Positions 4,204 through 9,868 of a stretch of DNA of 23,492 nucleotides are shown one piece after another (the first letter of the stretch is position 1; each line of letters opens with the position of its first letter). Under the pieces are notes generated by a model. The model ran no database searches. It was not told where the DNA came from and saw only the letters and a list, made by a program, of their open reading frames with translations. The translations under genes and the position numbers were made by a program. Source of the DNA: a virus; the IMG/VR virus record IMGVR_UViG_3300028925_008836, positions 1-23,492 of that record; one strand, given 5' to 3'.

Positions 4204-4400
4204 AAAAATTTTCAAGATAAAAGGCATAGCCCATTTTTTAGTGATATAACGAGCAAAACAATGTTTTTGGGTTAGGGAAAAAAAATTCGCGAAAAAGGGG
4301 TGGTCCCCCCTACTACCCTGTTGACATCGTGACATCGTTAATGGAGCTTTAGGACATGAGGGAAACACAACGTTTTCCATACTATTCTAGGAGCAACATC

Positions 4401-4625
4401 ATGGACTACTTGCAACATATCATTCAAGCCTTTCATTCAGAGTTAGTTGTTAACATTGTTTATCATAACAAGGTAAGCAAGTCAGGGCGTCAGGATCAAC
4501 GCAGGAAAGTTGAGTGTAGGGTTACAGGTTTTGATTCTACTAAAGACTTCTTTCGTATCACAACAACAGACGGAAAATATCGGACCTTGCGATATGAAGG
4601 AGTAAGATCAGTAACATTTAAATAG
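4401..4625 (+). CDS. Small unknown protein (74 aa)
   Basis: The start at ATG 4401 is preceded by AGGAGC seven bases upstream. An in-frame ATG at 4356 would add 15 residues and also has a weak GGA nearby, so the longer form is possible. The protein begins MDYLQHIIQAFHSELVVNI and ends FRITTTDGKYRTLRYEGVRS, a short beta-rich end resembling small WYL-like or Sm-like folds. That is only an impression. It has many Lys/Arg around SGRQDQRRKVECR, which could bind nucleic acid. It is the first of three plus-strand genes separated by conserved hairpins and is likely early, because it diverges from the packaging genes. Confidence 0.65.
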   Translation: MDYLQHIIQAFHSELVVNIVYHNKVSKSGRQDQRRKVECRVTGFDSTKDFFRITTTDGKYRTLRYEGVRSVTFK

Positions 4626-4631
4626 GCAACC

Positions 4632-4658
4632 TAGGGGCTGGCACTTCGCCAGCCCCTA
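4632..4658 (+). promoter_or_regulatory. Intergenic hairpin A (covarying pair with 4968-4994)
   Basis: A perfect 11-bp stem, TAGGGGCTGGC / GCCAGCCCCTA, with a 5-nt ACTTC loop. It lies just after the stop of the first plus gene. No T-run follows, so it is not a standard terminator. It could stabilise or cut the mRNA, or be a factor-dependent stop. The second copy differs by a C:G to G:C swap that keeps the stem. Confidence 0.7.
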
Positions 4659-4685
4659 CCATGCAGGACAACAGGAGCGAGTAAG

Positions 4686-4961
4686 ATGAGTAACTACCCC
4701 GACGGATGTAACGGACCAGAGGAACACACGTGGTCATGGAATAACGAACATGACGTTGAGCAGTGGGACGACGAAGCTAACGCAATCGTAATGAAGAATC
4801 TTCCCAATGCTTCGGAAGAGCTTCAGCAGGAATACAAAGAATCCTTCTACGATGCTGGGCCAGAGGATGGCGAGGGGATTGCTGAAGAGGAGCTTGAGAA
4901 GCATTGGATGCACTACAAGCTCACCCCTCTCATGAAGGAGTCCATTGGCTTCGGGAAGTAA
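4686..4961 (+). CDS. Acidic unknown protein (91 aa)
   Basis: A strongly acidic protein with a Trp-rich start (EEHTWSWNNEHDVEQWDDEA) and a helical, Glu-rich centre (ASEELQQEYKESFYDAG, GIAEEELEKHW). The ATG at 4686 follows AGGAGCGAGTAAG, a good ribosome binding site. The same AGTAAGATGA start context occurs at the next gene. It is flanked on both sides by the two matched hairpins. No family, signal peptide or membrane segment is recognised. The high negative charge would suit a DNA-mimic or inhibitor protein of the type phages use early against host enzymes, but nothing in the sequence proves this. Confidence 0.65.
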   Translation: MSNYPDGCNGPEEHTWSWNNEHDVEQWDDEANAIVMKNLPNASEELQQEYKESFYDAGPEDGEGIAEEELEKHWMHYKLTPLMKESIGFGK

Positions 4962-4967
4962 GTAACC

Positions 4968-4994
4968 TAGGGGGTGGCACTTCGCCACCCCCTA
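4968..4994 (+). promoter_or_regulatory. Intergenic hairpin B (covarying pair with 4632-4658)
   Basis: An 11-bp perfect stem, TAGGGGGTGGC / GCCACCCCCTA, with the same ACTTC loop as hairpin A. It differs from A only by one compensatory base pair, and it is likewise followed by TACCATG and then a ribosome binding site. No T-run follows. Confidence 0.7.
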
Positions 4995-5021
4995 CCATGA
5001 AGTACTAGGGAGACAAGTAAG

Positions 5022-5252
5022 ATGATTGATTCAGAGATACGCCGTATCAAAAAAGGCATAGCAGATATGGAAAAATTCTACACCGAAGAGTTGGATGAAG
5101 TTGTGGTCAACTTGAAAGCTGTGAAGGTATCGTTGGAAGAGTGTCGGGCTGACCATCAAGAAGCATTGAGGTTGCTCGCACAGTGCGAGAGTGAGAGAAG
5201 GATAGCAGTGGCACAAGTTGCACACTTCAAAGAAGTACTCGCTAGGAAGTAA
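5022..5252 (+). CDS. Coiled-coil protein (76 aa)
   Basis: Nearly the whole protein has a heptad-like pattern of hydrophobic residues in a charged helix: IRRIKKGIADMEKFYTEEL, VVVNLKAVKVSLEECRADH, ALRLLAQCESERRIAVAQV. It is therefore probably a dimeric or trimeric coiled coil. The ATG at 5022 follows AGGGAGACAAGTAAG, a good binding site. It is the last gene of the three-gene plus cassette and is followed by a strong UUCG terminator. There is no recognised family and no membrane segment. Possible roles range from structural adapter to regulator; none can be chosen from sequence alone. Confidence 0.65.
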   Translation: MIDSEIRRIKKGIADMEKFYTEELDEVVVNLKAVKVSLEECRADHQEALRLLAQCESERRIAVAQVAHFKEVLARK

Positions 5253-5270
5253 GTATCGCTAGTAAACAGA

Positions 5271-5303
5271 GGGAGGGTAGCTTCGGCTACTCTCCCTTTT
5301 TTT
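5271..5303 (+). terminator. Rho-independent terminator with UUCG loop
   Basis: Stem GGGAGGGTAGC / GCTACTCTCCC (11 bp, one G-T pair) around TTCG, then seven T. It closes the plus-strand cassette 4401-5252. Confidence 0.92.
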
Positions 5304-5393
5304 GTGCCCATCCCACAGATTACTCTAATTCTAAGCCATCCTAAGACACTTCGTCTACCTTCCTAATGCCATAGCATCACTAGCTTTTATACC

Positions 5394-5422
5394 TTGAATG
5401 CCTTGTGCCATTGTGCTATCTT
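5394..5422 (+). promoter_or_regulatory. Sigma-70-like promoter of the candidate small RNA
   Basis: TTGAAT (5394-5399), a 17-bp spacer and TATCTT (5417-5422), with TGTGC directly before the -10 (TGn-like extension). A start near 5429 is predicted. No protein-coding frame of convincing quality follows, only the folded RNA at 5429-5519. The 90 bp before it (5304-5393) hold nothing I can recognise. Confidence 0.65.
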
Positions 5423-5428
5423 ATGTGG

Positions 5429-5519
5429 TCAGACCTCCCGGCTAGACTGGGTTGGATGCTAGTTAACTTGGTAAGCGAAGACCTAAGTGCTAGTGTTCAA
5501 CCCACTCTAGTTTTTTTTT
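5429..5519 (+). ncRNA. Candidate phage small RNA, about 90 nt, ending in a T9 terminator
   Basis: The 5' end is single-stranded looking and contains ACCTCCC. An outer stem follows: CTAGA (5442-5446) with TCTAG (5506-5510), a C-C mismatch, then TGGGTTG (5448-5454) with CAACCCA (5498-5504). Inside, ACTTGGT (5465-5471) can pair with ACCTAAGT (5481-5488) around an AAGCGAAG loop, and CTAG pairs with CTAG outside that. The outer stem is directly followed by nine T (5511-5519), so the fold is also the terminator. With its own promoter just upstream this is a complete transcription unit without an ORF. It is not a tRNA: no acceptor/T-arm geometry fits. Function unknown; an antisense or ribosome-binding-site-pairing RNA is one idea. 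Confidence 0.6.
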
Positions 5520-5591
5520 GTCTTGGATCCAGCGGCTGCTGCCGGATAAGCTGGCCGAAATTTTTAGGGAGGCGCGAGCGTTAGCGAGCGA

Positions 5592-5643
5592 GGTACGGGC
5601 GCGGGCGCTGGCGGCGGCGAGGTACGGGCGCTAGGTACGGGCG
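5592..5643 (+). repeat. Cluster 1 of GGTACGGGCG repeats (3 copies)
   Basis: Copies at 5592-5601, 5621-5630 and 5634-5643, preceded by GCGA, GCGA and GCTA; the last two are 13 bp apart. They sit in a GC-rich gene-free stretch (5520-5688) that also has the near-palindrome CGCGAGCGTTAGCGAGCG at 5573-5590. The cluster lies beyond the terminator of the minus-strand DUF932-like gene. Confidence 0.85.
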
Positions 5644-5688
5644 CAAGAGGCAGGCCGATTCGGTTTCTCTTCGGTCTAATTTATGGGC

Positions 5689-5720
5689 AAAAAAAAGAGG
5701 CTGACCCGAAGGCCAGCCCC
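5689..5720 (-). terminator. Terminator of the DUF932-like gene, UUCG loop
   Basis: On the minus strand GGGGCTGGCC-TTCG-GGTCAGCCTC forms a 10-bp stem with two G-T pairs, followed by eight T (plus-strand A at 5689-5696). It is 13 bp past the stop of the 270-aa gene. Confidence 0.92.
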
Positions 5721-5732
5721 TGATTTTCTCAG

Positions 5733-6545
5733 CTAGGCTCTGATCTCTAGCTGGTCGGGATCCAGCCAACTGCCCGACTCAAAAGCTAGTTCCTTTCCTA
5801 GCTGGTGGAATTTTGACATCGAGGTCGGAAGGTCTCTGATATTTCTATCCTTTAAGATTTCCGTGGTGGCATTGTTGAAGCCCCAAAGAGTGCGCTGTTC
5901 AAATTCTTCGTGCCTAGGGTTACGGTACTCACCTAAAACTTTAGGCGCGTAACTCCAAGGCATCACGTTAGCGTCACACATCTTCACTAGAAAATCATGG
6001 GCTACCGTGTCGGATAAATCAGTAGCCTTATAAGACTCGATCACTTTCTGGTGATCGGTGTGTGCTTCCTCAATCTCACCAGCTAAACGATTAAGGCGAT
6101 CAGGTAGGACACTTTTAATATTCGTGGTGTGCATGTGACCTGTTGCGAAGTCACCCATGAAATCCATGTTGGTACAGACCATGACCACAATTCCACCAAT
6201 GATACCAGCCGACATTGATTTGTCGTGGCTGTTGCGAAGCCCGATAGATAAGTTGTAATCCTCACCTGTTGCGACATCATCACGGTCTATATTCATGACC
6301 CCGAAAAGTCTAGCCGTATCAAACATCACGTCCTCGCCTTCAACGTCAACCTTCCCACCTTCCAATGAGAATCTTTCTTGACCCACGTTCCAACCCCAAT
6401 GGTTCAAGGTCTTATACAACATGTCCAAAAATTCTCCATGTGGTAGAGGGTTATGGGTGCGTGTTGCTGGAGGTGTTGGAGTATCCCGAACCTCTTCCTC
6501 TGTGACCTTCGCCCCTCCGATAAGTGTCTGTCTTACTGTTGCCAT
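5733..6545 (-). CDS. DUF932-like phage/plasmid protein
   Basis: 270 aa; ATG 6545 follows GGGAG. The order of segments resembles the DUF932 (phage/plasmid-related, TIGR03299-like) family: a central LSIGLRNSHDKSMSAGIIGG with a following VMVCTNMDFM, then KMCDANVMPWSYAPKVLGEY, and near the end TLWGFNNATTEILKDRN. Many phages and plasmids carry such a protein. Its biochemical role is not settled and links to anti-restriction or replication are suggestions only. It is a one-gene unit with its own promoter (6616-6588) and its own UUCG terminator, divergent from the 55-aa gene. Confidence in the family is moderate; the gene itself is clear. Confidence 0.8.
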   Translation of the reverse strand: MATVRQTLIGGAKVTEEEVRDTPTPPATRTHNPLPHGEFLDMLYKTLNHWGWNVGQERFSLEGGKVDVEGEDVMFDTARLFGVMNIDRDDVATGEDYNLSIGLRNSHDKSMSAGIIGGIVVMVCTNMDFMGDFATGHMHTTNIKSVLPDRLNRLAGEIEEAHTDHQKVIESYKATDLSDTVAHDFLVKMCDANVMPWSYAPKVLGEYRNPRHEEFEQRTLWGFNNATTEILKDRNIRDLPTSMSKFHQLGKELAFESGSWLDPDQLEIRA

Positions 6546-7031: not shown

Positions 7032-7067
7032 GGTACGGGCGCTAGGTACGGGCGCTAGGTACGGGCG
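7032..7067 (+). repeat. Cluster 2 of GGTACGGGCG repeats (3 copies, 13-bp period)
   Basis: Copies at 7032-7041, 7045-7054 and 7058-7067 form three adjacent 13-bp units (AGGTACGGGCGCT and variants). The cluster lies directly past the terminator of the seam-joined minus operon. Confidence 0.9.
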
Positions 7068-8736: not shown

Positions 8737-8759
8737 GGTACGGGCGCTAGGTACGGGCG
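8737..8759 (+). repeat. Cluster 3 of GGTACGGGCG repeats (2 copies, 13-bp period)
   Basis: Copies at 8737-8746 and 8750-8759. The last five bases of the second copy form part of the hairpin at 8755-8782. Confidence 0.88.
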
Positions 8760-8782
8760 CCGGTCCTCCTAACCCGGCGCCC
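8755..8782 (-). promoter_or_regulatory. 9-bp perfect GC hairpin with GGAGG in its loop
   Basis: GGGCGCCGG / CCGGCGCCC with a 10-nt loop reading GTTAGGAGGA on the minus strand. It follows the 31-aa gene by 14 bp and precedes the 40-aa gene. The T-run is only TTT on the plus strand and absent on the minus strand, so it may be a pause, processing site or weak terminator. Confidence 0.5.
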
Positions 8783-8892: not shown

Positions 8893-9563
8893 GCCCACAC
8901 CACAAATCCAGATGTATCTTTCTTTCCCTTGCTACCCTTAGCAGTAAGCCCGACTATGCAGGGCTTAGGATCCCTGAATCTCCAATCATTTTCGGTGCCA
9001 TCAATCACTTGCAAACCGTGCCAAGTCTCAGGCAATTCTTTTCCAAACACTACGGATACATTCATTCCATTATCTAGGGCAGTATCTATATCTTTAGTTG
9101 TGGACTCTTCCGACCTAGAGAAAGTGAGGTCATAATTTTCTGGAATATTTTTTCTATTCTTATGCTTGGTGTAATCATAAAATTGTATGTTTGGGAAATC
9201 TTCCATGAACCCAAACCTTTCCCACCTTAGGTCACTAGTCCCATCTAATCTAATGACTGGCTGTAGATTCTTTTTAATTGCGCGACGCTCTACACTTGCA
9301 ATGTCTTTCACTAATAAGTCTAGAAATTTATCGCGTTCCTCAAAAAACATTATTGTCTTTTGGATCCTTGCCTCTTGTGTTCTTGTCATCTGACCTCGAC
9401 CTGAGAAGTAAAGACAAGCGTTCCTGCATCCTTCAGTAGATGAAGCACAAGCGTTGTGACCTGACTGTTCAGCAGGTGCTAGGTAAAGGATCGCGCCCTC
9501 TATCCCATGTTCTGGTGCGTTGGCTTGCTTAGGTGAGCTTGTTGCATGTCCTAGTAAGTGCAT
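8889..9563 (-). CDS. Gp88-like phage protein with a Cys cluster
   Basis: 224 aa from ATG 9563, which has AGGAGAAAGT before it; the 31 codons upstream in frame lie in the promoter region and are not used. The N-terminal third contains LLGHATSSPKQANA, ILYLAPAEQSGHNAC and SSTEGCRNACLYFSGRG, with Cys39, Cys46 and Cys50 (C-x6-C-x3-C). A middle IRLDGTSDLRWE follows. This order resembles the phage Gene-product-88-like family as I recall it (laP..SG...C.....C...CL..sGRG). The three Cys could hold a metal or cluster, reminiscent of, but not equal to, a radical-SAM CxxxCxxC. Function unknown. It is coupled to the 31-aa membrane peptide. Confidence 0.7.
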   Translation of the reverse strand: MHLLGHATSSPKQANAPEHGIEGAILYLAPAEQSGHNACASSTEGCRNACLYFSGRGQMTRTQEARIQKTIMFFEERDKFLDLLVKDIASVERRAIKKNLQPVIRLDGTSDLRWERFGFMEDFPNIQFYDYTKHKNRKNIPENYDLTFSRSEESTTKDIDTALDNGMNVSVVFGKELPETWHGLQVIDGTENDWRFRDPKPCIVGLTAKGSKGKKDTSGFVVWA

Positions 9564-9594
9564 ACTTTCTCCTATGAGAAGTTTAACATGAATA

Positions 9595-9622
9595 AACTTA
9601 ACATTATATAGAGTAATGTCAA
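9595..9622 (-). promoter_or_regulatory. Promoter of the Gp88-like gene
   Basis: Minus strand TTGACA (9622-9617), 16 bp, TAAGTT (9600-9595), with CAGCCC before the -35. A TATAAT lies only 8 bp past the -35, too close to pair with it. The start would lie near 9588 and the leader would be about 25 nt with AGGAG. Confidence 0.55.
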
Positions 9623-9806
9623 GGGCTGTAGATAAATTAACGGCCAGACCTAGCAAATAAATCTATTTAGTTATGCGGCGACACTGTAGCGGGCTGCCTA
9701 GTGAGTGAGTGAGTAAGTGATCGCGCCATCTAGCAGAAAAATCTAAAAAAATATGCGAGGCCAGCACAAATTTGCACGAAGGGCAGAAAAATCTATAGAA
9801 ATGCTA

Positions 9807-9868
9807 GGTACGGGCGTCAGACCGGCGAGGTACGGGCGTGAGATCTATTAATTTGCTAGGTACGGGCG
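9807..9868 (+). repeat. Cluster 4 of GGTACGGGCG repeats (3 copies)
   Basis: Copies at 9807-9816, 9829-9838 and 9859-9868, spaced 22 and 30 bp. Upstream, 9657-9806 holds GCAGAAAAATCTA twice (9733 and 9783) and a GTGA/GTAA tetranucleotide tract near 9700-9720, but no gene I can support. Confidence 0.88.

Follow-up and report, generated by a model that had tools for sequence, protein, structure and literature searches.

Positions 5428–5519 of the window, that is, of the 23,492-base viral record from a marine phage analysed here, may encode a discrete ~90-nt small RNA with the potential to block ribosome-binding sites. We put this reading forward tentatively, at somewhat short of an even chance. 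The candidate lies on the + strand between two already terminated genes (Table 1), and its hairpin, T-run and free leader are properties of the sequence or of its predicted fold. We favour it slightly over a back-up terminator, chiefly because the clade's terminators look so different from this hairpin, which is accompanied by an open leader resembling the anti-Shine-Dalgarno (anti-SD) sequence; the evidence on the promoter weighs against a separate RNA.

Table 1 Features at the candidate RNA locus and its flanks. L009 is the diverged copy on contig 3300031623_000566.
Feature	Position	Strand	Remarks
Intrinsic terminator of gene 5022–5252 (terminator 1)	5268–5303	+	14-bp stem, TTCG loop, T7; −22.6 kcal/mol
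Non-coding stretch beyond terminator 1	5303–5404	+	~85 nt of the stretch missing in L009
−35-like hexamer TTGAAT, 4/6	5394–5399	+	direct reading; not in L009
Extended −10-like TGC-TATCTT	5414–5422	+	CGC-TATACT in L009
Predicted single-stranded 5′ leader GUCAGACCUCCC, anti-SD-like core	5428–5439	+	putative start site
Long imperfect hairpin	5440–5512	+	30 pairs including 6 G-U; predicted fold
T9 tail abutting the hairpin (intrinsic terminator tail)	5511–5519	+	direct reading
Terminator of the convergent gene 5733–6545	5721–5696	−	

Transcription would begin at a weak host-type promoter with an extended −10 and would end at the T9 of the RNA itself. The 3′ four-fifths would form a long, partly G-U-paired hairpin, protecting the RNA and leaving a U tail, and the 5′ dozen bases would stay single-stranded and carry ACCUCCC. 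By masking G-rich ribosome-binding sites, this leader could lower the translation of phage or host messages. We infer the separate transcription unit, its start site, any part played by Hfq or another chaperone, and the blocking of SD sequences.

The upstream + strand operon spans 4356–5252, and the convergent gene 5733–6545, on the minus strand, has a DUF932 domain. The first-pass annotation had held that both flanking genes are already terminated, which was borne out by a terminator on either side, and that the segment has no credible open reading frame. The latter was borne out too: the sole notable frame, a mechanical one of 59 aa at 5405–5584, is broken by an in-frame TAG in L009.

When folding starts at 5428, the RNA makes a single continuous imperfect hairpin of 7 + 16 + 7 pairs, with a predicted energy of −37.6 kcal/mol (z −4.75). 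None of 200 dinucleotide shuffles was equally stable, and for the entire interval first annotated, 5394–5519, one of 200 was. By this folding model, the stability of the hairpin is beyond chance. The fold of ~90 nt described in the first-pass annotation was thus recovered as a single hairpin, stronger than claimed, and the nine T at its end were confirmed. The reverse complement of the hairpin RNA folds less well (−28.4 versus −37.6 on the + strand), because six of the pairs are G-U, and the L009 RNA has the same asymmetry (−34.4 versus −24.4). This suggests that the palindrome, if at all, was shaped as a + strand RNA, which fits both a small RNA and a terminator. The window has 32 T6+ contexts, counting both strands, and in this set the hairpin was by far the most stable (−37.0; next, −25.1). 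In relatives totalling 787 kb, a survey of T7+ contexts (207 distinct) gave ten long hairpins above the cut-off. Of these, the L009 homologue alone was comparable in being long and near-continuous; the remaining nine were short GC-rich terminators with A/T tails, or composite or heavily interrupted folds, the composite one being formed by the GGTACGG repeats of L096 (−34.8).

The first 12 nt of the RNA from 5428 are unpaired in the predicted fold and carry ACCUCCC, and the leader is identical across all four known copies. We take its ACCUCC to match the 3′ tail of 16S rRNA. Complements of at least 5 nt to the leader were sought in the 20 nt upstream of 41 starts picked from the list of open reading frames. 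They were present at 13 of the 41 starts, compared to 4.35 for shuffled leaders (13 was reached by 19 of 1000, or 1.9%) and 15 of 41 for the true anti-SD, which supports, as a property of the sequence, a generic SD binder. The candidate has the accessible C-rich core of anti-SD-type small RNAs, in a predicted unpaired leader that matches 13 of 41 upstream regions; a specific target was not found, no single one being prominent. Duplex energies between the leader and the start regions were not better than those of shuffled leaders, 31% of which reached the mean, and start regions were not better than gene interiors. The best duplex (−19.0, gene 19411) was reached by 24% of the shuffled leaders. 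Pairing with ribosome-binding sites had been proposed earlier, with the loop at 8755–8782, which exposes GGAGG, as a possible partner. The general complementarity to SD sequences held up in the 41-start test, whereas the named partner did not stand out: its binding to the leader was equalled or surpassed at 952 of 46,964 ten-base sites. That the RNA is a phage-made general anti-SD, with a hairpin-protected leader mimicking the 16S rRNA tail, seems unlikely. If true, it would mean broad competition for ribosome-binding sites and a shift in host or early phage translation, with no single message as target.

The elements of the proposed promoter are all present where they had been placed: both hexamers, the 17-bp spacer between TTGAAT and TATCTT (5417–5422), and the extended −10 with its TG at 5414–5415. 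Its strength did not hold up, with 8/12 consensus matches, under the scan threshold of 9. At ≥9/12 the scan of the window itself gave 34 sites, versus 34.6 expected by chance. The extended −10 makes the site rarer: ten equally good extended −10 sites occur in the window on both strands, and in a post hoc test the chance of such a site is 0.4% per 20-nt zone on this strand. In L009 three bases are changed at or next to the −10 (TGCTATCTT to CGCTATACT), which reads TATACT and has lost the TG. The −35 region is lost together with ~85 nt, and no hexamer with at least 3/6 matches to TTGACA is located 16–18 nt upstream of TATACT. Judged by its sequence, the promoter is hardly more than chance would give.

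Copies of the RNA were found in the window and in three other viral contigs. In the near relatives 3300028925_009785 and 3300028925_010511 the RNA is unchanged and identical over 145 nt. When the viral contig collection was scanned with the apical core, only these two were retrieved; scans with both stem arms (with wildcards) and with the leader added L009. There were no copies in the genome contig collection and none in the phage collection. L009 and the window agree exactly in the leader, 23 outer pairs and the T9. The 25-nt apical part is replaced in L009 by a different 10-nt sequence, and the hairpin closes nonetheless.

The four copies differ only in the apical part and share one outer stem sequence. 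The pairs of this stem are invariant and offer no changes in which covariation could show, so that in these sequences the stem appears to be kept by identity, not by covariation. A covariance model built from two sequences was run over the window and 96 of 124 loci; the 28 loci left out were 21 crops (L001–L007, L087–L090, L094, L095, L097–L100, L104, L107, L110, L111) and seven fragments (L113, L117–L122). Its matches were confined to the window and L009, apart from their reverse strands and two at chance level, and over 28 whole records there were two matches, the window and the record of L009. The covariance search named as a check in the first-pass annotation thus matched only the window and L009, whose invariant outer pairs leave no room for compensatory changes to appear. 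Because nearly all of the non-coding stretch 5404–5763 is kept almost identical in L009, conservation fails to single out the RNA. Elsewhere in L009 the terminase region is ~93% identical at the DNA level and the aligned small + strand genes 72–81%. L021 is 76% identical to the window over 5292–5404, the stretch before the promoter.

No family of Rfam release 15 (4227 families) reached its gathering score in the window, and in 5300–5700 there was no match at E up to 5. ARAGORN found no tRNA or tmRNA genes in the window. In two of the phage contigs the Mu-gpT-DE RNA (RF03012) was above its gathering score (L028:15822–15873 and L040:16954–17005). The window terminase is 53–59% identical to those of phage DSL-LC04, whose host is given as Gammaproteobacteria, and of the pelagiphages HTVC027P and HTVC023P; with IMG/VR contig terminases identity reached 100%, among the best 80 of 563 matches. 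A host search for terminase relatives in the genome contig collection gave none.

The slot between terminator 1 and the convergent gene appears, from the sequences compared, to be a non-coding zone between convergent operons with turnover of content, because L021 and five sister phages carry other content there. A scan of this slot in 14 relatives revealed no comparable second hairpin with a T-run; CTAG-ended hairpins were flagged in three, with sequences unmatched to the window. The slot hairpin of L021 (CTGGGTAGGTAG...CTACCTACCCAG) was rejected as a distant homologue, its local alignment over the RNA region being at chance level (reached by 20% of shuffled sequences and by 22% of chunks of real sequence), and as evidence of covariation, its best model match being weak and on the opposite strand. 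The five sisters share a conserved non-coding block of ~200 nt (L091:4980–5176, L017:478–655, L026:4976–5153, L018:4301–4496 and L040:5155–5333), which is not similar to the RNA of the window. Nor was this block counted as an RNA: 2 of 39 pairs were changed on both sides and 42 of 500 shuffles reached its score. Upstream of gp35, HTVC027P (L128) has a gap with no annotated genes, in which, at ~9540–9650, a long hairpin (about 9616, −33 kcal/mol) precedes one resembling a terminator. The long hairpin was dismissed as a counterpart, as the adjoining gene is not a relative of 5733–6545 by BLASTP and the strand relative to the terminase is opposite.

The segment could also be a second, back-up intrinsic terminator catching read-through of the operon 4356–5252, without a separate RNA, and we regard this as a serious possibility, below even but close behind the separate RNA. 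It corresponds to a refuting case of the first-pass annotation, a stem that only terminates a longer transcript from upstream. The segment shares its strand with terminator 1, which it follows at 140–220 nt, and it faces the convergent minus-strand operon; in L009 it is even nearer to terminator 1, because the ~85 intervening nt are missing. The promoter is weak and unconserved. A stable hairpin followed directly by a T-run is what a terminator requires, and is what 5440–5512 and 5511–5519 offer. The likeness to intrinsic terminators ends with this order of hairpin and nine T: the hairpin has 73 nt and 30 pairs, compared to mostly 24–32 nt for the other terminators of the clade, and is neither GC-rich like these nor capped by a TTCG or GAAA loop. 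The pairs adjoining the T-run are A-U-rich and include a C-C mismatch, and a comparable second hairpin with T-run was absent from the slot of the 14 relatives scanned.

Two further readings are less probable. The segment might work as DNA, marking a site of replication, packaging or recombination, the hairpin being incidental to RNA. The strong conservation of 5404–5763 with its GGTACGGGCG repeats between the window and L009, and the other conserved non-coding blocks in the slot of sister phages, would agree with such a role. We consider it rather improbable, given that the minus strand has an imperfect palindrome, which only G-U pairing on the + strand makes complete, and that the repeats, in four intergenic clusters, are not particular to the hairpin. 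A 3′-UTR-derived RNA, freed by cleavage after read-through of terminator 1, would account for the same strand, the close spacing behind the operon and the weak −10; it requires that transcription pass a strong terminator (−22.6 kcal/mol, T7) and then a stretch unconserved in L009, and is quite improbable. A phi29 pRNA, a type III antitoxin, a retron and a CRISPR-repeat mimic were considered and set aside, as no partner gene and no Rfam match was seen. As a free-standing small RNA gene, which the first-pass annotation had claimed, the segment has on its side the strand-specific fold, the T9, the free leader, the lack of a conserved open reading frame and the terminated flanks; against it stand the weak promoter, the unconserved −35 and extended −10, and the very narrow distribution.

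If it is a separate small RNA, we file it as a candidate of an already known kind, phage small RNAs and small RNAs with anti-SD motifs, because PreS, VpdS and the anti-SD RNAs of Rhizobiales are known. PreS (lambda) and VpdS (VP882) are presented, in the part of PMC12197685 drawn on here, as phage-encoded, trans-acting and Hfq-dependent, with named effects. The candidate is likewise short and phage-encoded, and its presumed action on messages is similar; unlike these two it is known from its sequence alone, and the likeness is one of description. SmelA075 and SmelA099 are small RNAs of Rhizobiales with anti-SD motifs in CCUCCUCCC loops, according to the section of PMC3927594 considered. As in the candidate, their anti-SD-like core is C-rich and single-stranded, but they present it in repeated hairpin loops, whereas the candidate has one short core in its 5′ leader, so that the likeness is by motif only. 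In Hfq-binding small RNAs, following an excerpt of PMC5558911, T-runs are ≥7 and function is tied to a moderate hairpin strength. The candidate shares the T-run of at least 7 after the hairpin; its hairpin is very stable rather than moderate.

Small RNAs of related marine phages seem hardly described. A literature search on pelagiphages and small RNA surfaced, in the extracts covered, only general work on viruses and evolution, and the main text of a 2025 pelagiphage transcriptome paper contains none of six related terms. If expressed, the candidate would be a compact, testable example of a marine-phage small RNA; if it is a terminator only, it warns that a hairpin, a T-run and a weak −10 are insufficient for a small RNA call.

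Other elements were recognized around the locus. Hairpins without a T-run (TAGGGG...CTTCG...CCCCTA) stand at 4632–4658 and 4968–4994 between consecutive + strand genes, and similar ones separate the small genes of relatives. Directly after the operon terminator, TTTTTTTGTGCCYACC (5297–5318) is conserved in many relatives past the expected stop point. CCATTTTTTAGTGATATAACGAGCAAAAC, at 4231–4259 between divergent operons, occurs in a degenerate form in L008–L012, L019, L021 and L096 and is a candidate control element. The eleven exact copies of the repeat GGTACGGGCG all lie on the + strand and form four intergenic clusters (5592–5643, 7032–7067, 8737–8759 and 9807–9868); with up to one mismatch there are 14 matches, versus 0.8 expected. 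Many relatives have intergenic zones filled with this repeat, but the stretches of HTVC027P and DSL-LC04 lack it; it is possibly a phage-specific binding site or part of a promoter.
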